Positions 4,475 to 37,559 of a stretch of 39,573 bases of DNA are shown here, piece by piece. Location: positions 1-39,573 of the forward strand of contig JAAYOJ010000040.1 of the NCBI GenBank assembly GCA_012520405.1, in the 5' to 3' direction. Position 1 is the first letter of the stretch, and every line of letters begins with the position of its first letter. The position numbers were made by a program, and so were the translations under genes. The stretch is from Peptococcaceae bacterium (GTDB lineage: Bacteria > Bacillota > Desulfitobacteriia > Desulfitobacteriales > Syntrophobotulaceae). The notes beneath the pieces are model-generated. The model was not told where the DNA came from and did no database searches. It saw nothing but the letters and a program-made list of their open reading frames with translations.

Positions 4475-5575
4475 ATGAAAAAAAGAATTCCTGTTCTAAT
4501 GCTTATTTTGCTCTTAATGACAGCGTTAGTAATCTCCGGTTGCGGTAAGAGTTCCGGCGGGGACAGCACTGCCAGCGGAGATGCTGCGGGAAATGGGCTA
4601 CCCAAAGTAGAACTGTCACTTACCCTCCATGACCCAGTCACTTCTCGTATAGCGAAGGCTATGCAAGCTTGGGCGGACGAGGTAAGCGCCAAGACGGACG
4701 GCGGCCTGACCATCAAGCTTTTTGGTAGTGGCACGTTGGCTCCCGGACCTGAAGCACTGAACTTCGTAATGGATGGCACGGCCGATATCGGCTGGCTGTA
4801 CACGATGTTCTATCCGGGACAGTTTGCGCTTACAGAAGTGGTCGCTTTGCCGATGAATGGGCCGACACATCCGGCACAGACCGCCGAAGTGCTGTGGGAT
4901 CTCTATGAATCAACTCCTGAAATGAAGGAAGAGCTTGATTCCAAGGTACACGTTTTAACCATGTACGGGAATCCGGTTAATTTCATTTCTACAACTAAAA
5001 AGCCAATCAACACCTTAGCTGATATCAAGGGAATGAAACTGCGCTGCCCGGCAGGGGCTATGACCGAAGTCATGCTGCTCTGGGGTGCCTCACCCGAAGT
5101 TGTCGCAGCCGGGGATACCTATGATGCTCTTCAAAAAGGCAATATTGACGGCACATCTTGGGAATGGCAGGGTATTGAAGCATTCAAACTTTATGAACAG
5201 CTAAAATACTATATGGAAGGTATGCCTATTTATGAAGGTGTCTTTGTCCTTGGCATGAACAAGGATAAATGGGACAGCCTGCCTCAGGAATATAAAGACG
5301 TTCTGAATGAGACTACAGGTCGTGCGGGCTCGGTTGCCTTCGGCAATACATTCTATGAAGCGGCCGAAGAGTCCAAGGAAGCGATTTTCAGTTCAAACAA
5401 AAATCTCGAGATTGTAAATCCCACGCCTGATGCAATTGCAGAATTCAAGGCTATTGCGGACGAATACGCTAAGACCTGGGTCCAAAAAACCTCGAAAGAC
5501 GGCTTTGATGCCCAGGCTTATCTGGACAAATCTTTGGAGCTGACGGAAAAGTATAAGGACAAATATAATAAATAA
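4475..5575 (+). CDS. dctP: TRAP transporter substrate-binding protein (DctP family)
   Basis: Extracytoplasmic binding protein of a tripartite ATP-independent periplasmic transporter. The N-terminus is a lipoprotein signal: a basic MKKR start, a hydrophobic stretch and a lipobox ending ISGC with Cys23, so the protein should be tethered to the outer face of the membrane. The DctP fold is indicated by GTADIGWLYTMFYPGQF, the ligand-contacting segment KGMKLRCPAGAM with the conserved Arg that usually binds the substrate carboxylate, and GNIDGTSWEWQGI. The length of 366 residues is slightly above average because of a Ser/Gly-rich linker after the lipid anchor. RBS GGAGGAAAAG lies just before the ATG. 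The substrate is not determinable from sequence, but an organic acid is likely by family. Confidence 0.93.
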   Translation: MKKRIPVLMLILLLMTALVISGCGKSSGGDSTASGDAAGNGLPKVELSLTLHDPVTSRIAKAMQAWADEVSAKTDGGLTIKLFGSGTLAPGPEALNFVMDGTADIGWLYTMFYPGQFALTEVVALPMNGPTHPAQTAEVLWDLYESTPEMKEELDSKVHVLTMYGNPVNFISTTKKPINTLADIKGMKLRCPAGAMTEVMLLWGASPEVVAAGDTYDALQKGNIDGTSWEWQGIEAFKLYEQLKYYMEGMPIYEGVFVLGMNKDKWDSLPQEYKDVLNETTGRAGSVAFGNTFYEAAEESKEAIFSSNKNLEIVNPTPDAIAEFKAIADEYAKTWVQKTSKDGFDAQAYLDKSLELTEKYKDKYNK

Positions 5576-5645
5576 GTTCAAATAGCAGCTTAGTAGTTTG
5601 TGCAAATCTTCATTAACGTTGTTGATGGAATGAACATTGTTTATG

Positions 5646-5676
5646 GAAACGGGTCGCAACTTCTGCGATCCGTTTC
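5646..5676 (+). promoter_or_regulatory. Intra-operon hairpin between dctP and dctM
   Basis: A 13-bp stem: GAAACGGGTCGCA (5646-5658), loop ACTTC, TGCGATCCGTTTC (5664-5676), with one G-U wobble and no following U-run. It sits in the 124-nt gap between the binding-protein and permease genes. Stems like this usually protect the 3' end of the abundant binding-protein mRNA or damp read-through. This function is inferred. Confidence 0.65.
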
Positions 5677-5699
5677 ACCGGCCGGAAAGGAGCTCGTTT

Positions 5700-7007
5700 A
5701 TGGACTTGATGACCCTTGCCATACTTGGTATTGTAGCTTTTCTGGTACTTATCCTACTTGGTATGAATATAGGCATTTCCCTTCTGCTCGTCGGTACTAT
5801 AGGCTATGCACTTGCTGTTTCTCCAAAGGCAGCTCTAGGCCTTCTACGCTCGATCCCGGCTTCCCAAGCGGGAACATACGCCCTTATGGTTATACCGATG
5901 TTTATTATTATGGGAAATTTTGCCTTTCATGCAGGACTGTCTAACGGACTCTATAATTTTTGTAACAAATGGTTGAGCAGACTTCCGGGCAATCTCGCTT
6001 GCGGAACTGTGGCTGCCAGCACTGGTTTTCACGTTATTTGTGGCAGCATCGCCGCCACAACGGCAACAATGGGTACAATCGCCATACCGGAAATGCGCAA
6101 ATACGGTTACGATGACAGACTTGCAACCGGTAGTGTGGCGATGGGCGGAGCACTCGGCAATCTCATTCCTCCAAGTACACTTCTCATTATTTACGGCGTA
6201 GTTGCCGAACAATCTATTGGCCGCCTGTTTGCAGCCGGTATTATCCCGGCTATTATCTTGCTAGTACTGACTATTATCACTATTGTTATTATGGTTACAG
6301 CAAAACCGAGCCTTGCACCGCCACCGCATAAAACCCCATGGAGCGAACGGTTTAAATCTACTATCGGCATGATCCCGATTATTATAATCTTTACTGTTGT
6401 TCTTGGCGGAATGTTTTCCGGTCTCTTCACCGTAAACGAGGCTTCGGCTCTAGGCGCTTTGACGGCTGCAATTATTACTATTGTGAAAGGTCGCTTTAGC
6501 TGGAAGAGCTTCGTTGAAATCATGGCCAAATCCGTTGAGACTACCGCGATGACTTTTCTAATTATTATAGGTGCTGCCGTCTTTTGCACCTTCCTGAACA
6601 TTACAGGATTTCCGGAGCAGCTTGCGAACATCATTGCGGGAATGGACGTTTCCAAATTTGTTATTATCCTAGTTATGACCATTATTTATCTCATCCTCGG
6701 GGCTGTCATGGACGAACTTCCGATGATGATGATGACAGTTCCGATTTTTATGCCCATCGCTGTAGAGCTTGGGTTTTCCCCGATCTGGTTTGGCGTCTAT
6801 GTGGTTCTCTGCATGGAAATGGGTGCGATTGCACCGCCGGTCGGGCTTGCCTGCTTCATTCTTGCCGGCATTGCCAAAGACGTGCCGCTCGGAACGATCT
6901 ACCGAGGCGCTTTGCCTTACATTATTACCATCTTGGTCATGATTGCGATTATTACAGTCTTTCCGAATCTTGCAACCTTCCTGCCAGATCTGATTTTTAA
7001 TCAATAA
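5700..7007 (+). CDS. dctM: TRAP transporter large permease (DctM family)
   Basis: The 435-residue, multi-spanning (about 11-12 helices) ion-coupled permease of the TRAP system. Diagnostic segments include ALMVIPMFIIMGNFAFHAGLS near the N-terminus, GGALGNLIPPSTLLIIYGVV in the middle (conserved GxxxPPS-type loop) and MEMGAIAPPVGLACFILAGI towards the C-terminus, an internal repeat of the same motif. ATG 5700 is preferred: it follows GGAAAGGAG at 5683-5691, whereas the open frame extends upstream through the hairpin to a weaker ATG. The gene precedes the small permease, the reverse of the more usual P-Q-M order. Confidence 0.94.
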   Translation: MDLMTLAILGIVAFLVLILLGMNIGISLLLVGTIGYALAVSPKAALGLLRSIPASQAGTYALMVIPMFIIMGNFAFHAGLSNGLYNFCNKWLSRLPGNLACGTVAASTGFHVICGSIAATTATMGTIAIPEMRKYGYDDRLATGSVAMGGALGNLIPPSTLLIIYGVVAEQSIGRLFAAGIIPAIILLVLTIITIVIMVTAKPSLAPPPHKTPWSERFKSTIGMIPIIIIFTVVLGGMFSGLFTVNEASALGALTAAIITIVKGRFSWKSFVEIMAKSVETTAMTFLIIIGAAVFCTFLNITGFPEQLANIIAGMDVSKFVIILVMTIIYLILGAVMDELPMMMMTVPIFMPIAVELGFSPIWFGVYVVLCMEMGAIAPPVGLACFILAGIAKDVPLGTIYRGALPYIITILVMIAIITVFPNLATFLPDLIFNQ

Positions 7008-7022
7008 CGGAGGCGATGATTT

Positions 7023-7586
7023 ATGAAAATAATAAAACGACTTCTTTATCGCTGCGCCGGTGCTATGGGCTCAATTAGCGCCATTGGGTATATCGCGATC
7101 ATCGTCCTCTGTGTGTTCGACGTTGCCCTGGAAAAACTAATAGGGAAACCTATCCGGGGGTCTTATGAACTCGTGGAACGCTGTATGGTTATCGCGGTTT
7201 TTGCTTCATTTGCTTACGCCCAGGTTAAAAAAGCTCATATCAATATGATGATTCTTATTGAGCGTTTTCCGAGATTTTTGCGTTTGCTTTCTCTCGGCCT
7301 TACGAGCTTACTTTCTGTCGGAACGACGGGCTATGCCGCTTATGCTGCATGGACGCAGTCAATGACCGCCATGGATATGAATCAGTATACCGGCATCCTG
7401 CATATCCCGCTCTGGCCGTTTTACTCCTTGCAATCAATCGCCATGTACTTCTTTGCCATCATTCTACTTCTTGATACAATCTATGTCTTCGGAGCGATAA
7501 AGAGCAATAGGTTAAACGAGATGGTAACGGAGGATTATGGAATGATAATCCCTAAATCGAGGAAGACTGCGTATAAACCCGAGTGA
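7023..7586 (+). CDS. dctQ: TRAP transporter small permease (DctQ family)
   Basis: A 187-residue protein with four predicted membrane helices (about residues 13-35, 50-70, 83-108 and 128-152), matching the DctQ family. The motif RGSYELVERCMVIAVFASFAYAQ, with the Glu after the first helix and a following KKAHI segment, is typical. It pairs with the DctM large permease encoded 15 nt upstream; the RBS GGAGGCGATG precedes its ATG. A strong terminator follows, so the transporter is a self-contained dctPMQ unit. Confidence 0.9.
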   Translation: MKIIKRLLYRCAGAMGSISAIGYIAIIVLCVFDVALEKLIGKPIRGSYELVERCMVIAVFASFAYAQVKKAHINMMILIERFPRFLRLLSLGLTSLLSVGTTGYAAYAAWTQSMTAMDMNQYTGILHIPLWPFYSLQSIAMYFFAIILLLDTIYVFGAIKSNRLNEMVTEDYGMIIPKSRKTAYKPE

Positions 7587-8883: not shown

Positions 8884-10851
8884 ATGGCAAAATTTAATGA
8901 ATTCCAACATGTATTTTCACCGATCAAGGTAGGCAACCTTACGCTTAAAAACCGCATTCAATTCTCGCCTATGGTCTGTTGCTTATCAAATGCTGCCGGC
9001 GAGGTTACCACAGAATTCGTAGAATTTTTGGGCATGCAGGCCCGGACCGGAGCCGGCCTGGTGACTATTGGCGCCACTCCGGTGGACAATGATACAGGAG
9101 CGGATGCTTACGGGGAACTGGATGTTACCAATGATAATAAAATTCCAGGCTTAAAACGCGTTTCCGAAGAAGTACACCGTTATGGAGCCAAACTTTCCAT
9201 TGAACTGGTTCATTCCGGCAGAGGCTCTCTGCCCGAGCTTTTACGCAAGCCTTATGCTTTGGCCCCCAGTATTATTCCTACTCCGGGTGGTCCTAGGAAG
9301 ATTAAAGTTATGGATCAAGACGATATTGACCAAGTGATAAAAGCCTATGCTGACTGCGCAGAACGGTTAGTTAAAGCCGATTTTGATATGGCCATGATTC
9401 ATGCCGCTCACGGTAATCTAATTGCCCAGTTCTTATCTCCCTACACCAATAAACGCAATGACTATTACGGCGGTTCCTTTGAAAACCGGGCTCGTTTTGG
9501 CCTGGAACTGCTGCAGGCCGTCCGGGAAAGAGTCGGCCAGAGCTTAGCATTAGAAATGAGGATCAGTGCTGAGGAAATGGTTGAAGGCGGCATGGAGTTA
9601 GAAGAAACCATAGAGTTTATTAAACTGGCCCAAGAATATATTGACTTAGTTCATGTCTCGGTAGGTCTGATCGTGGAACATAATAAAGCGGCTTTTTGGA
9701 CTATGCCGCCTTACTATCATGCTCATTGCCATAACGTAAAATATGCCGAAGCGGTAAAAAAGGATCCGGATATTAAAATTCCGGTAACCACAGTCGGCAG
9801 TATCAATACTATTAAAGATGCCGAAGAAATAATAGCTTCCGGAAAAGCTGACATTGTGGCCATGTGCAGGCAGCTGCTCGCCGATCCGGAGACTATTAAA
9901 AAGGCTTACCGCGGGGAAGAAGGAACAACTAGACCTTGCCTGCGTTGCTGGGAAGGTTGTGTCGGTGCTGTTGCCTTCGGGGGCCAGGTCAGATGTAGCA
10001 TCAATCCGGTAGTGGGCAGGGAAACTAAATACCGGGAAATTCCGCTGGCTCGCAGAAAGAAAAAAGTGGTAGTGGTAGGCGGTGGGACAGCCGGAATGAT
10101 GGCTACTCAAACCTTGGTGGAAAGAGGGCATGAAGTCGTACTTATGGAAAAAAAGGATAGACTAGGCGGTCATCTGCCTGAAATAAGTGCACTTCCGTTC
10201 AAAGGGGATTTACGTGCCTACTTGAAATGGAATGTAGACACCACTATGAATTGCGGGGCCAAAATTTTGCTAAACACTGAGGCGGACGAGGATAGCATCC
10301 GCAAGGAAAACCCGGACGCTATTATTATCGCGGTTGGGTCCAGCCCGGTGGAACTTGATATTCCAGGAAGCGATAACGAAAATGTTCACTCGGTTTTAGA
10401 TGTGGATAACGGTAGGGTCCAAGTCGGATCCAAAGTCGTTGTTTGTGGTGGCGGAGTGAGCGGTATGGAATGCGCCCTGGCTTTGGCCATGGAAGGCAAA
10501 GACGTTACTGTCGTGGATATGATTCCTGTGGAGCAATTTGCCAAGGATATGGTGGTTGCCACCCGGCCTATGCTGCTCTATCTCTTAAATCAACATAAAG
10601 TCAAATTTATTGGGGAGCATAAAGTGCTGCAATTCCTTAAAAATGGAGTAGAAATAGAAGATCGAAATTGGAACCATTCCATTATAGAAGCGGATACCAT
10701 TGTTAAGGCCTTCGGTATGCGACCTAACAAGGAATTGGTGGAGCGTTTAGGTTGTATTGTCCCTGAAACTTACCTAGTCGGTGACTGTGACCAGGCTAAG
10801 AATATTCAGTATGCCAATCATTCCGCCTTTAATGTTGCGGTGGAGGTTTAA
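8884..10851 (+). CDS. NADH:flavin oxidoreductase / 2,4-dienoyl-CoA reductase-type enzyme (FMN, [4Fe-4S], FAD)
   Basis: A 655-residue three-domain enzyme. Residues 1 to about 345 form an Old Yellow Enzyme-type FMN barrel (FSPIKVGNLTLKNRI at the N-terminus, HGNLIAQFLSPYTNKRND at 176-193). Cys352, 355, 359 and 371 form the exact C-x2-C-x3-C-x11-C cluster motif. From about residue 394 there is a dinucleotide-binding module (VVVVGGGTAGMMA) with a second one near residue 520 (VVVCGGGVSGMECAL). Relatives include FadH, 2-enoate reductases and the bile-acid enzymes BaiCD/BaiH; the substrate cannot be read from sequence. The position of the usual catalytic Tyr (HGY) is Asn178. RBS GGGAGG precedes the ATG. 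The LysR gene follows by 2 nt. Confidence 0.88.
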   Translation: MAKFNEFQHVFSPIKVGNLTLKNRIQFSPMVCCLSNAAGEVTTEFVEFLGMQARTGAGLVTIGATPVDNDTGADAYGELDVTNDNKIPGLKRVSEEVHRYGAKLSIELVHSGRGSLPELLRKPYALAPSIIPTPGGPRKIKVMDQDDIDQVIKAYADCAERLVKADFDMAMIHAAHGNLIAQFLSPYTNKRNDYYGGSFENRARFGLELLQAVRERVGQSLALEMRISAEEMVEGGMELEETIEFIKLAQEYIDLVHVSVGLIVEHNKAAFWTMPPYYHAHCHNVKYAEAVKKDPDIKIPVTTVGSINTIKDAEEIIASGKADIVAMCRQLLADPETIKKAYRGEEGTTRPCLRCWEGCVGAVAFGGQVRCSINPVVGRETKYREIPLARRKKKVVVVGGGTAGMMATQTLVERGHEVVLMEKKDRLGGHLPEISALPFKGDLRAYLKWNVDTTMNCGAKILLNTEADEDSIRKENPDAIIIAVGSSPVELDIPGSDNENVHSVLDVDNGRVQVGSKVVVCGGGVSGMECALALAMEGKDVTVVDMIPVEQFAKDMVVATRPMLLYLLNQHKVKFIGEHKVLQFLKNGVEIEDRNWNHSIIEADTIVKAFGMRPNKELVERLGCIVPETYLVGDCDQAKNIQYANHSAFNVAVEV

Positions 10852-33042: not shown

Positions 33043-35034
33043 ATGGCATTCCTAAAATTTCCCCATCTTTTTCAGCCTCTTACTTTGGGCAAAACGGTAT
33101 TTCGCAATAGAATTTTTGCTTCGCCAACCGGCTTTCAAAACGGTGACCATCTTAACTTGCCCAGTAAAGAACTTATTGCTTACTATGAGCTAAAAGCACT
33201 GGGCGGAGCGGCCTCGGTGACAATGGGTGATTGCTTAGTGGACAGTAAAAACGGCCGGGTGACTAAGGTTCAGTTTCCACTTGATGATCCGGACCAGAAA
33301 GGTCCTCTGGGTTCTTTGTGCAAGGCAATTACTCGTCATGGTGCGGTCGCCTCCCTGGAACTTCAGCATGGCGGGATGTATGCACGTACTTCCGGCGAAC
33401 AACTGGGTTATGTTTGGGGGCCTTCGGCGACCATGTTGCCTTTTAGGCCTGGTGGCAGTCCGCAGGTTAAAACGGATGGGACCATGATTGAGGTTAGAGA
33501 AATGTCTGAGGACATGATAGAATATACAATTTCTCGTTTTGGAGATGCGGCCTTATTTGCTAAAAAGCGTGGCTTTGGCATGGTTATGATTCACGGAGGC
33601 CACGGTTGGCTGGTATCTCAATTTATGTCGGATAAAACAAACAAGAGAAAAGACCGCTGGGGCGGTTCCCTGGAAAACCGGATGAGGTTTCCTCTGGCCA
33701 TTATCGATGACATTCGCAAAAAATGTGGTCGGGATTTTCCGATTGAGTTCCGCATGAGTGGTTCGGAGTGCTACCCCGACGGCTATGGCATAGATGAAGG
33801 GATACGTTTTGCCCAGATGTTAGACGGCAAAGTGGATCTTATTCATGTTTCCGCCGGCAACCATGAAATTTTTGATGTTTTCTTTATTACCCATCCTTCC
33901 ATGTTTCATGAGGACGGCTGTAACGTTAAGTATGCGGCCGAGATCAAAAAACATGTCCAAACCCCCGTCGCTACTGTGGGGGCCCTGTCCGATCCAGCTA
34001 TGATGGAAGAGATTATTGCTTCGGGCATGGCGGATGTAGTAGAACTGGGACGCGAGACTTTGGCCGACCCCGATTTTCCCATCAAAGCACGTACCGGACG
34101 TGACGAGGAGATTAACCAGTGCTTGCGTTGCTATTCCTGCTTCTCCGAGTGCGATGCTACCTGCCATTTTCAATGTGCCATCAATCCCGTTATTGGGAAT
34201 GAGTATGAAACCAAGTTTGACATACCGCCCAAAATCAAAAAGAAAGTGCTTATTGCAGGCGGCGGTATAGCCGGGATGCAGGCAGCATTAACCTGTGCAG
34301 ACAGGGGACATGAAGTCATTCTTTGTGAAAAAACAGCTGAATTAGGCGGCATTCTGTTGTGTGAAGACCAGGTTCCTTTCAAGAAGAAGCTTAAATTGTA
34401 CATCGAAAAACAAAAAAGAATGATAAAAAAATCTGGGATAGAGGTAATACTGAACACCGAAGTAACAAAGGATTTAGCTGAAGAAATTGCCCCGGATGCA
34501 ATTATTGCAGCGATGGGGGCTACTCCGATTAAACCCAATATTCCTGGTATAGATAATCCGAAGGTTTTGAGTGCAGTGGATATCTACAAAAATCCGCAAT
34601 TGGCAGGGCGGAAAGTGGTTATTATTGGCGGCGGTCTTGTTGGCGTAGAACTGGGGATCTTCCTTTCCATGAAGGGCAGCGAGGTGACCATTTTAGAAAT
34701 CATGCCTTATTTAAACTATGGTGCCTCCGGTGTTCACGGTGCTTTCCTTGACCTTAAAATCCCCGAGTACGGCATAAGGGTGGAGCTTTCAACTAAGGCG
34801 GTTATGATCGACGATCAAGGGGTAGTTGGCGAGGACCAAAAGGGAAAGCAAAAGAAATTTCCAGCCGACACGGTTATATATGCCGTAGGCTTAAAGCCCC
34901 AGTGGGAGAGAGCCGACGAGCTGCGCCAGCTAGCCAAAGAATTCTTTCAAATAGGGGACTGCTTGAGACCGCGCAATATTCTTATGGCTAATCAGGAAGG
35001 ATATTACGCAGCTAAGGATATAGGTCGTTTCTAA
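33043..35034 (+). CDS. NADH:flavin oxidoreductase / 2-enoate reductase-type enzyme (second paralogue)
   Basis: A 663-residue paralogue of the enzyme at 8884 with the same layout: OYE-type FMN barrel (residues 1 to about 350), cysteine cluster, then FAD/NAD modules (VLIAGGGIAGMQAAL near 402 and VVIIGGGLVGVELGI near 527). The barrel carries HGWLVSQFMSDKTNKRKDRWGG, with Trp189 where classical enzymes have the catalytic Tyr. The cluster region has six cysteines (360, 363, 366, 370, 374, 378), with C-x2-C-x2-C-x11-C spacing rather than the usual C-x2-C-x3-C-x11-C. RBS GAGGAGG precedes the ATG, and a TATAAT lies about 55 nt upstream. The substrate is unknown; anaerobic reduction of an enoate or enoyl-CoA is the family expectation. 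Confidence 0.88.
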   Translation: MAFLKFPHLFQPLTLGKTVFRNRIFASPTGFQNGDHLNLPSKELIAYYELKALGGAASVTMGDCLVDSKNGRVTKVQFPLDDPDQKGPLGSLCKAITRHGAVASLELQHGGMYARTSGEQLGYVWGPSATMLPFRPGGSPQVKTDGTMIEVREMSEDMIEYTISRFGDAALFAKKRGFGMVMIHGGHGWLVSQFMSDKTNKRKDRWGGSLENRMRFPLAIIDDIRKKCGRDFPIEFRMSGSECYPDGYGIDEGIRFAQMLDGKVDLIHVSAGNHEIFDVFFITHPSMFHEDGCNVKYAAEIKKHVQTPVATVGALSDPAMMEEIIASGMADVVELGRETLADPDFPIKARTGRDEEINQCLRCYSCFSECDATCHFQCAINPVIGNEYETKFDIPPKIKKKVLIAGGGIAGMQAALTCADRGHEVILCEKTAELGGILLCEDQVPFKKKLKLYIEKQKRMIKKSGIEVILNTEVTKDLAEEIAPDAIIAAMGATPIKPNIPGIDNPKVLSAVDIYKNPQLAGRKVVIIGGGLVGVELGIFLSMKGSEVTILEIMPYLNYGASGVHGAFLDLKIPEYGIRVELSTKAVMIDDQGVVGEDQKGKQKKFPADTVIYAVGLKPQWERADELRQLAKEFFQIGDCLRPRNILMANQEGYYAAKDIGRF

Positions 35035-35212: not shown

Positions 35213-35323
35213 CTAATTGTTTTCTGAGCTTTTCTGAGAGGTAAGATATCCATAAATTCCGATAGCCGCGCTACCTATCATAATAGCTGCTACAATAGCT
35301 TGCCATAACATTAAGCCGTCCAT
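35213..35323 (-). CDS. 36-residue membrane protein, putative symporter accessory subunit
   Basis: A 36-codon gene, found by reading the minus strand next to the symporter. The peptide begins MDGLMLWQAIVAAIMIG and ends TSQKSSENN, with a single membrane helix of about 22 residues and a short polar tail. A strong ribosome site AAGGGGGAAG lies 5-6 nt before the ATG. Its start is 12 nt after the stop of the 56-codon gene, so it belongs to the same operon. Short single-helix proteins encoded beside sodium:solute symporters are known as accessory proteins in several anaerobes; I cannot confirm family membership here. The plus-strand open frame overlapping this region lacks such signals. Confidence 0.72.
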   Translation of the reverse strand: MDGLMLWQAIVAAIMIGSAAIGIYGYLTSQKSSENN

Positions 35324-35335
35324 AATACTTCCCCC

Positions 35336-35506
35336 TTAATCATCATAGTCGATAACGAAACGATTGTTATCGCTCCAAGACTCTTCGTCCTCAGGCAGAT
35401 GCGACATCCATTTAACCCAAGCGACTTCAGATATGAGCATTTGGATAATAACACAGATAATCGTAAATATGGCAAAACCAACAGGTAATGATAACGTAGG
35501 TCCCAT
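35336..35506 (-). CDS. 56-residue membrane protein, putative symporter accessory subunit
   Basis: A 56-codon gene starting MGPTLSLPVGFAIFTIICVI, with one membrane helix (about residues 7-26), then an aromatic amphipathic segment (VAWVKWMSHLP) and an acidic C-terminal tail (EDEESWSD and DYDD). The ribosome site AAGGAGG lies 7 nt before the ATG, one of the strongest in the window. It starts 49 nt after the symporter stop and is followed by the 36-codon gene. I do not recognise the family by name. The operon context and RBS support a real protein that assists or stabilises the symporter. Confidence 0.75.
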   Translation of the reverse strand: MGPTLSLPVGFAIFTIICVIIQMLISEVAWVKWMSHLPEDEESWSDNNRFVIDYDD

Positions 35507-35554
35507 TTTCAATCCTCCTTTTAATAAAAAGCTAAAATACGCAAGCTATGTCTA

Positions 35555-37045
35555 TTACTTCGCGGCATTCCGTGCTGCATCATAAGCTGCCCTCTGCTTG
35601 TAGTAAACTTTCGTGAAGCTGTCCTTCCTGTTTTTATCCAGAGCGGTAAAGAAGAGGCATAGGACAGTGGAAAGAATAATCATGAAGATTGAATAGTTGT
35701 TACCTTCCAGATGGAAGACAGCGGCGAGGTTAGTAAAAGTAAGTACCAGGTTCAAAAACCAGCTGATACCCAGCGTAAGAAGCGCGGCTTTGCCGGAACG
35801 TTTCCAAAGCATCCCGATAAGGAAGATGAAAAAGAGAGGAACAAGAAAGGCGAATAACCAGGTTATCCCCAGATTAACAGCAGCCTGAATTTTAACTGCA
35901 CCCAGCATAGCAGAAGTGCAGCCGACAACGATCCAAACCCGGGACCAAGTCTTTTCCTTCTGGGGAGACATATTTCTAAAGTATGGGAAATAGGAGAGAA
36001 TGTCACGGTTGAACATGGTTGCCAAAGACAGAGCCACCATGGCAACAGTTGAGAGCATAGCAGCCAGGAAGACACCGATTACGCAGATCTGCAGCCAGCT
36101 TGGCATGTAGGTCAAGGTTAATACAACAACGCCAGCAGCTCCGTTACCGGTAGCAGCGGGTTCAGGCAGGGCCATGGCAGCCAAACCTAAACCGAGAATA
36201 ATTACGCCAAACAGCACGTTCATAGGGATAGCTGCGGTACAGGCTCTTCTCAGTACTTGGACGTTTTCCACAGCGGCTGCGGACTGGATGTTGGCTTGAG
36301 CCATGTTAAGGCCAAGGGCGCAGGCCAGGAAAGTGCCGATTACATAAGTGCGGAGGATTTCCGGATTACCAAGGATGGTGAGTAGGTCTGGATTATTTGC
36401 CAGAATGTTGTTATTAATGCCAGCCCAACCTTCTGGGGTTGAAAAATTTAGATACACGAGCATAATAATACCAAATAAATACATTAAGGCAGCATTAACA
36501 ATATTAACGTAGCCGATTTCTTTCATGCCAGCCAGGTACACGTACAGAATTCCTGTAAGAGCACCAATGATGGCTCCTGTTAGGTTGGATAAGCCGGTCA
36601 GGGAGGAGATTACAGTGGCCAGGCCCTGGGTCTCAACGCAGAGGATACCCCAACAGTAGCCAACCCCGACCCCGCCGAGAATCGGCATGAGAATAGGATG
36701 GAACATTTTACCGAACATATCGTTTAAGGTCACACAACCGAAACGGCGATACCAAATACCGTTAAATCGAAGAATAATGATAAACATAAAACCGGTGCCT
36801 ATACAATACCAAATAGTTGCTATACCTGTATTCCAGGACTGAAAGGCGAGACCGTTAATGTGGCCGCCTCCCAGAGCAGTCAGTGCCTGGGTAGCTGCAA
36901 CCGCAAGCCAAGGCAATTTCCTGCTGGAAAGGACGAAGTCATCTTCCACGCCGGTTTTACTCTGCTTCCAACGAATAAAGGCATAAACTACAAAAATTAT
37001 AATGAGATTGTAAGCAATCCCGCCGATGGTGACAAACCAGTTCAT
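35555..37045 (-). CDS. Sodium:solute symporter (SSS family)
   Basis: A 496-residue carrier with about 12-13 membrane helices and the LeuT-fold SSS pattern. Typical segments are DDFVLSSRKLPWLAVAATQALTALGGG (sodium site and helix TM1), the FGKMFHPILMPILGG region and FLAAMLSTVAMVALSLATMFNRDIL (TM8, sodium-ligating small residues). The solute cannot be read; candidates are carboxylates, amino acids or pantothenate-like compounds. ATG 37045 is chosen because the frame's earlier ATG at 37063 is part of the ribosome site GGAGGAG. The last 25 residues are a charged cytoplasmic tail. Two small membrane genes follow in the same operon. Confidence 0.9.
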   Translation of the reverse strand: MNWFVTIGGIAYNLIIIFVVYAFIRWKQSKTGVEDDFVLSSRKLPWLAVAATQALTALGGGHINGLAFQSWNTGIATIWYCIGTGFMFIIILRFNGIWYRRFGCVTLNDMFGKMFHPILMPILGGVGVGYCWGILCVETQGLATVISSLTGLSNLTGAIIGALTGILYVYLAGMKEIGYVNIVNAALMYLFGIIMLVYLNFSTPEGWAGINNNILANNPDLLTILGNPEILRTYVIGTFLACALGLNMAQANIQSAAAVENVQVLRRACTAAIPMNVLFGVIILGLGLAAMALPEPAATGNGAAGVVVLTLTYMPSWLQICVIGVFLAAMLSTVAMVALSLATMFNRDILSYFPYFRNMSPQKEKTWSRVWIVVGCTSAMLGAVKIQAAVNLGITWLFAFLVPLFFIFLIGMLWKRSGKAALLTLGISWFLNLVLTFTNLAAVFHLEGNNYSIFMIILSTVLCLFFTALDKNRKDSFTKVYYKQRAAYDAARNAAK

Positions 37046-37559
37046 AAAATAGTTCTCCTCCATTCAATTTAAAATATGCATTGCTTTGTTTAGACTTCGG
37101 TAACCTGCTGAGTGCAATGAATGCTGCTGTTTCTTCACCTCCAGATAAATTTTTGACATTTACACCTGGGCCCAGCATAAATGTTTTTAATAAATAAGTG
37201 TCTGTTAAATTAAAGATTATTCACAAACACAATATTTATTTCGCATTATAATTTCCGAAACGCCAAACATTGGAGGAATATGTAATTTAATGATTATTTG
37301 GAATTTTCAAAAAGTAAAAATTGTGTAAAAAAATTAGAAGACATTATCAAATTTGTTAAAACATCCATTTATATTATAAAATATGAAATAAGCTGATAAA
37401 CTAAATTTCTCAAAAGTTAAGAGGGAAACATTTAAGAATATTTTGTAATATTAACAATTATATTGTACCTAAGGCTTAAAAAGGAATAAACCAACTATTT
37501 GTGTACCGGCAACAAATTTTTGTTAAGGCTAATAAGAACAAAGATTATAGGAGAAAAAA
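37046..37559. other. Divergent intergenic region between the symporter and MBOAT genes
   Basis: A 514-base AT-rich region with no convincing gene on either strand. It holds the symporter leader, a long inverted repeat (37156-37184) and the promoter region of the MBOAT gene. A TTGTTA about 17 nt before a TATAAA-like stretch near 37358-37385 is a possible but weak plus-strand promoter. No sigma-54 box, riboswitch or RNA gene was recognised. Confidence 0.6.
37156..37184. promoter_or_regulatory. Operator-like inverted repeat upstream of the symporter operon
   Basis: ACATTTA (37156-37162) and TAAATGT (37178-37184) flank CTGGGCCCAG (37166-37175), itself a perfect palindrome. Together they make a nearly symmetrical 29-bp dyad, off by one base in the spacers. 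It lies about 110-140 nt upstream of the symporter ATG. Symmetry without a loop favours a protein-binding site over an RNA hairpin. Confidence 0.5.

Follow-up and report, generated by a model that had tools for sequence, protein, structure and literature searches.

Two conserved single-span peptides accompany one clade of sodium:solute symporters and probably form a three-part transporter with it

RESULTS

Layout of the symporter operon

The window (the whole 39,573-nucleotide stretch of DNA analyzed) contains a minus-strand operon of three genes followed by a terminator, with a convergent neighbor on the other strand.

37045-35555, minus strand: sodium:solute symporter (SSS) gene, 496 amino acids, start after GGAGGAG at 9 nt
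35506-35336, minus strand: small ORF A, 56 codons, ATG start, AAGGAGG 7 nt upstream
35323-35213, minus strand: small ORF B, 36 codons, ATG start, Shine-Dalgarno-like AAGGGGGAAG 10 nt upstream
approximately 35179-35138, minus strand: hairpin of an intrinsic terminator with a 14-bp stem; the U-rich tail behind it reaches about 35129
33043-35034, plus strand: OYE/BaiCD-like reductase, 663 amino acids, convergent neighbor outside the symporter operon

A longer symporter ORF starting at 37063 is possible, but the start at 37045 is preferable because GGAGGAG sits 9 nt before it. The first-pass annotation had described genes of 56 and 36 codons behind the symporter, each with a strong ribosome site and one membrane helix, and a terminator after the second. 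Both genes are present on the minus strand, do not overlap, and contain a single hydrophobic stretch each. A has the ribosome site AAGGAGG; that of B (AAGGGGGAAG) is weaker. The terminator was borne out as well: on the minus strand UUUUGUUAUU comes after its 14-bp stem, the centroid structure of a 111-nt stretch has an energy of -20.9 kcal/mol (z score of -2.57), and 0 of 200 shuffled sequences folded equally well. A consensus terminator scanner missed the hairpin because its loop is long.

The symporter, A, and B lie in one reading frame with in-frame stops between them, in the window (35213-37045) as well as at L024 and L027. Translational fusion or read-through of the three was rejected, since the frames differ in most relatives; the shared frame in the window is therefore a coincidence.

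The symporter is a divergent SSS protein with a predicted Na2 site

The symporter has 13 predicted transmembrane (TM) helices. It scores 87.5 bits against the Pfam SSF model, above the cutoff of 22.8, and 89.9 bits against NCBIfam TIGR00813, below the superfamily cutoff of 184, which is one database's naming threshold. Falling under the latter though above the former, the protein is a divergent member of the SSS family (TC 2.A.21). AlphaFold2 predicted the symporter fold confidently, with a pTM of 0.84 for the window model and 0.81 for a model of the L027 locus. Foldseek comparison of the symporter model gave as its best matches the chains of human SGLT2 and SGLT1 in structures with MAP17, followed by CHT1, vSGLT, and SiaT, with TMt values of 0.66 to 0.82 (SGLT1/2, CHT1, and SiaT); the alignments to the SGLT1/2 chains are long and have a high rmsd (7.2 to 10.8 Å). 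The Na2 serine pair in vSGLT, within AAIVSSLA, aligned to aAiLStfA of the clade in TM8; S338 is invariant across the clade, and the residue after it is Ser or Thr. Such a Ser-Ser/Thr pair on TM8 is presumably the Na+-binding Na2 site known from vSGLT and PutP. Placement of the symporter in the SSS family stands on its fold, on the Na2 motif, and on a score above the Pfam gathering threshold, and its predicted family function is Na+-driven solute transport.

A and B occur together behind every symporter of a non-redundant set

The genome that contains the window encodes two further symporter paralogues, 49% and 40% identical to the window symporter, and a tandem pair lies directly behind both, with peptides of 54 and 36 amino acids (L002) and of 43 and 37 amino acids (L003). 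All three paralogues of this genome (3/3) thus carry the A+B pair. A search of a genome collection yielded 14 loci from Peptococcaceae, Oscillospiraceae, Family XIII, Gammaproteobacteria, a proteobacterial metagenome-assembled genome, and the cultured alphaproteobacterium Cohaesibacter marisflavi. A and B were directly downstream in 13/13 complete loci; the sequence of the fourteenth, L035, ends within the symporter. Further genome searches added L006, L037, L039, L040, L090, and L097 to L099, all with the pair, while a search of plasmids recovered distant SSS genes only.

With near-identical genomes counted once, there are 22 pair-bearing symporters. One relaxed detector, which called two successive ORFs of 25 to 75 amino acids with a helix hydropathy of at least 1.9, a ribosome site, and starts no more than 200 nt apart, found the tandem pair with 22/22 clade symporters and with 0/45 other SSS genes, the latter mainly from Bacillota. 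Dropping the ribosome site requirement gave the same result (22/22 versus 0/45), and an origin of A and B as chance ORFs was rejected on these counts. Conserved peptides beside the SSS genes of relatives, for which the first-pass annotation had proposed a search, are thus present. In pair-bearing loci the gene order is always symporter-A-B, the distance from the symporter stop to the A start ranges from -3 to 67 nt, and a ribosome site precedes every start. The pair is spread over Bacillota, Alpha- and Gammaproteobacteria, and one further group.

When 65 SSS proteins were placed in a maximum-likelihood tree, all pair-bearing symporters fell into one 23-member branch with an SH-aLRT support of 100. 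Presence of the pair required two state changes on this tree, versus a mean of 18.6 when it was shuffled. The single member of the 23 without a downstream pair is L038. Upstream of its symporter lies a 31-amino-acid ORF, MPSIFCGVIWMYVLIGAMYVICSAIASKSST; it has AAGGAGG and includes a B-like string, IWMYVLIGAMYV. Among 1,859 small ORFs this was the top match to the core B profile, with an E value of 0.32, which is not significant. Judging by these resemblances, B may possibly have shifted upstream in L038 and A may have been lost. The 31-amino-acid ORF is on the minus strand, 170 to 75 nt before the symporter start, and is also found in L091.

The clade is rare in Bacillota, occurring in 6 of 398 sampled genomes, that of L038 included. 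Its rarity and scattered distribution suggest horizontal transfer of the whole symporter-A-B unit.

A and B are distinct one-helix proteins under purifying selection

Each peptide has one hydrophobic stretch in 22/22 loci. Summed over the clade peptides, Lys and Arg residues after versus before the helix number 55 versus 6 for A and 75 versus 3 for B; by the positive-inside rule, both look like N-out/C-in proteins. The core signature of B is close to WM..V...M..YG...G..+, and the N-terminal start of A is rich in aromatic residues. The aromatic and acidic tail that had been ascribed to one of the peptides does exist in the A protein of the window, but it is a subclade trait and not a general property of A: it is kept only in the subclade of the window (L002, L023, and L024), the A proteins of L025 and L026 have a short HEPED tail instead, and proteobacterial A proteins have basic residues behind the helix.

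Profiles of B from the core and outer subclades recognized each other (best E value of about 1e-5; hhalign probability of 94%). Mutual recognition of the corresponding A profiles was weaker (hhalign, 78%), and the A proteins of the two subclades are tied mainly through their position. Two ideas about the origin of the peptides were set aside. A and B do not appear to be duplicates of each other, as their core profiles barely match (hhalign, 38% over 13 columns). Nor is A favored as a detached SGLT-type TM13, since its charges indicate N-out/C-in and TM13 of SGLT runs in the opposite direction.

Between the window and a congeneric genome, dN/dS was 0.13 for A and 0.08 for B. Three further close pairs gave 0, 0.07, and 0.02 for A and 0.14, 0.30, and 0.19 for B, and the symporter values in these close pairs were 0.03 to 0.19. 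The numbers are small (20 to 34 synonymous sites) but consistent, and B evolved faster than A in 3/4 pairs. A and B are under purifying selection where this is measurable: the four close pairs, with dN/dS of 0 to 0.30, displayed neither the loss of conservation nor the excess of nonsynonymous and synonymous change that the first-pass annotation had named as refuting its reading. The genes for A and B are conserved, code for protein, and occur in a single deep SSS clade only.

Predicted placement of the helices

In-frame read-through chains, which occur by chance in the window and in L027, served as input for AlphaFold2. In the window model, A had a pLDDT of about 70 to 83 and B of about 45; in the L027 model, A was at about 50 and B at about 63 to 83. 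Each model thus placed one helix confidently, and the docking was inconsistent between them; the alignments contained few rows for A and B.

Neighboring genes and the likely solute

The genes downstream of the pair are wholly different between loci. In Cohaesibacter (L034), the gene after the pair encodes a BKACE protein that scores 536 bits against a 3,5-dioxohexanoate:acetyl-CoA model with a cutoff of 430, and the neighborhood includes a 3-hydroxyacyl-CoA-dehydrogenase-like enzyme and a 3-oxoacid CoA-transferase; the BKACE match hints at a triacetate- or pyrone-type substrate. The L029 neighborhood encodes an acetoacetate-CoA ligase, a cyclase-family hydrolase, and a cupin. At L025 and L026, an OYE-type reductase lies directly upstream on the same strand, and an iron alcohol dehydrogenase follows. 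A small organic acid or a zwitterion is the probable solute.

Catabolic genes recur around the proteobacterial loci L028, L029, L030, and L034, among them those for BKACE, the 3-hydroxyacyl-CoA-dehydrogenase-like enzyme, the cyclase-family hydrolase, a cupin, an SDR protein, and a CoA-transferase or acetoacetate-CoA ligase. OYE/BaiCD-like flavoenzymes recur by the symporters, at 33043-35034 and 8884-10851 in the window, 3886-5913 in L025, and 3896-5941 in L026. Genes at 4475-7586 of the window encode what by eye is a tripartite TRAP-type transporter (solute-binding protein and large and small membrane subunits), and they precede the second OYE-type reductase and a LysR regulator.

DISCUSSION

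A three-part transporter

The SSS subfamily described here, accompanied by two dedicated partners of one span each, is real, conserved, and unrecognized in the databases searched. The first-pass annotation had read the operon as encoding a three-part transporter, and the strict co-occurrence, conserved gene order, purifying selection, and restriction of the pair to a single clade that crosses phyla strongly support that reading. We therefore consider it likely that the three genes specify a secondary transporter of three subunits, in which the symporter would associate physically with the dedicated single-span proteins A and B. Counting against this are the inconsistent AlphaFold2 docking, the absence of the downstream pair from L038, and the mainly positional link between the A proteins of the two subclades.

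In the proposed mechanism, the symporter, A, and B would be made from one transcript. The A and B helices, oriented N-out/C-in, would rest on the fixed part of the symporter, aiding its folding, its membrane insertion, or the scaffold for alternating access. Ion and solute would be carried by the symporter alone, and the solute would be fed to the neighboring catabolic enzymes. By analogy with MAP17 and human SGLT2, the most likely role of A and B would be to stabilize or scaffold the symporter. We lean, with modest confidence, toward a stricter form of the model: an obligate heterotrimer of the symporter and two different MAP17-like single-span subunits, both required for function, which would be ancient enough for Bacillota and Pseudomonadota to share it.

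A and B could instead be assembly or quality-control factors that act in insertion, folding, or oligomerization and do not belong stoichiometrically to the mature transporter. The co-occurrence and selection data fit such factors too, and the structural paper on MAP17 favors a role for that protein in localization, folding, or stability over a direct effect on activity (PMC10803289). There is, however, one A gene and one B gene per symporter, and stand-alone copies were not seen, a pattern that is more subunit-like without being decisive; we regard assembly factors as unlikely. That B evolved faster than A in 3/4 close pairs, and that each AlphaFold2 model contains one confident helix, would also fit an arrangement in which one peptide touches the symporter and the other, most likely the faster-evolving B, senses or couples to a downstream enzyme or transport partner. 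B is nevertheless linked to the symporter as strictly as A (22/22), its subclade profiles recognize each other better than those of A, and the downstream genes differ completely among loci, which makes this division of labor quite improbable. Short hydrophobic peptides are common as such, but the absence of the pair from all 45 other SSS loci under the same criteria, together with purifying selection, a ribosome site at each start, and a position conserved across phyla, leaves hardly any room for A and B as small type I toxins or as chance hydrophobic ORFs, the latter already refuted.

The pair also has practical consequences. About 20 genomes in this analysis encode two small-protein families for which neither Pfam nor NCBIfam has a model. 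If A and B are left out, heterologous work on clade symporters may fail because the partners are missing. The A+B pair marks a transporter subfamily that lies beside catabolic genes and can aid substrate prediction.

Comparison with known transporter-peptide systems

No Pfam or NCBIfam model matched A or B above noise, and in the open-access literature, to which the survey was confined, no description of an SSS transporter with two peptides was found. ActP with YjcH (DUF4212) and PanF with YhdT are SSS carriers with one adjacent small membrane protein. Partners of the YjcH and YhdT types are larger, multi-span, and single, in contrast to the two single-span peptides here, and neither the DUF4212 nor the YhdT model matches A or B.

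The single accessory peptides that the first-pass annotation mentioned for some symporters of anaerobes have a catalogued representative, NF045580, but that peptide belongs to a different family and lies upstream in the loci checked. Like A and B, it is a one-helix peptide (about 33 amino acids) encoded beside an SSS gene. Unlike them, it occurs singly and directly upstream of an SSS gene that is only distantly related to the clade (L101 to L104, four relatives); the products of these genes score 38 to 61 bits against the A3 profile, versus 381 or more for clade members. The model did not match A or B at E values up to 1 for the peptides of the window and up to 10 for the other clade peptides tested; as a positive control, a consensus of the NF045580 peptide scored 72 bits against its own model, the cutoff of which is 35 bits. 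Given this result and the tandem downstream position of A and B, identity of either with NF045580 was rejected. No NF045580 peptide was found in the genome of the window, and among 14 control genomes a signal appeared in Methanosarcina acetivorans only.

MetP-MetS is reportedly an NSS-family methionine/alanine importer with a small subunit. It resembles the present system in that a secondary carrier with the LeuT fold has a small subunit of one span, and it differs in belonging to the NSS family and in having one such subunit. The Pfam model MaAIMP_sms did not match A or B, so neither was taken for MetS. The source for MetP-MetS is Trotschel et al. 2008, as cited in a passage of PMC2807442.

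A further parallel, and the precedent for the proposed mechanism, is that of human SGLT2 and SGLT1 with MAP17 (PDZK1IP1), likewise an SSS-fold transporter with a single-span auxiliary subunit. The single TM helix of MAP17 binds at TM13, moves together with the bundle domain, and stabilizes SGLT2; MAP17 is part of the fixed scaffold and supports surface expression (PMC10803289). It differs from A and B in being one subunit rather than two and in not being encoded beside its transporter, and the SGLTs have 14 TM helices versus 13 in the model of the clade symporter. A and B had no sequence relation to solved PDB chains, MAP17 included, and no match to the MAP17 family in Pfam. As far as the sequences indicate, the likeness to MAP17 is one of arrangement only. 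There is still debate over the reason that SGLT2 requires MAP17 and over the role of small helices in LeuT-fold carriers. For questions of this type, the present bacterial clade, whose symporters are strictly linked to two one-helix peptides, offers a compact, genetically tractable system. Known SSS helpers of such a kind number at most one per transporter; two are new here.
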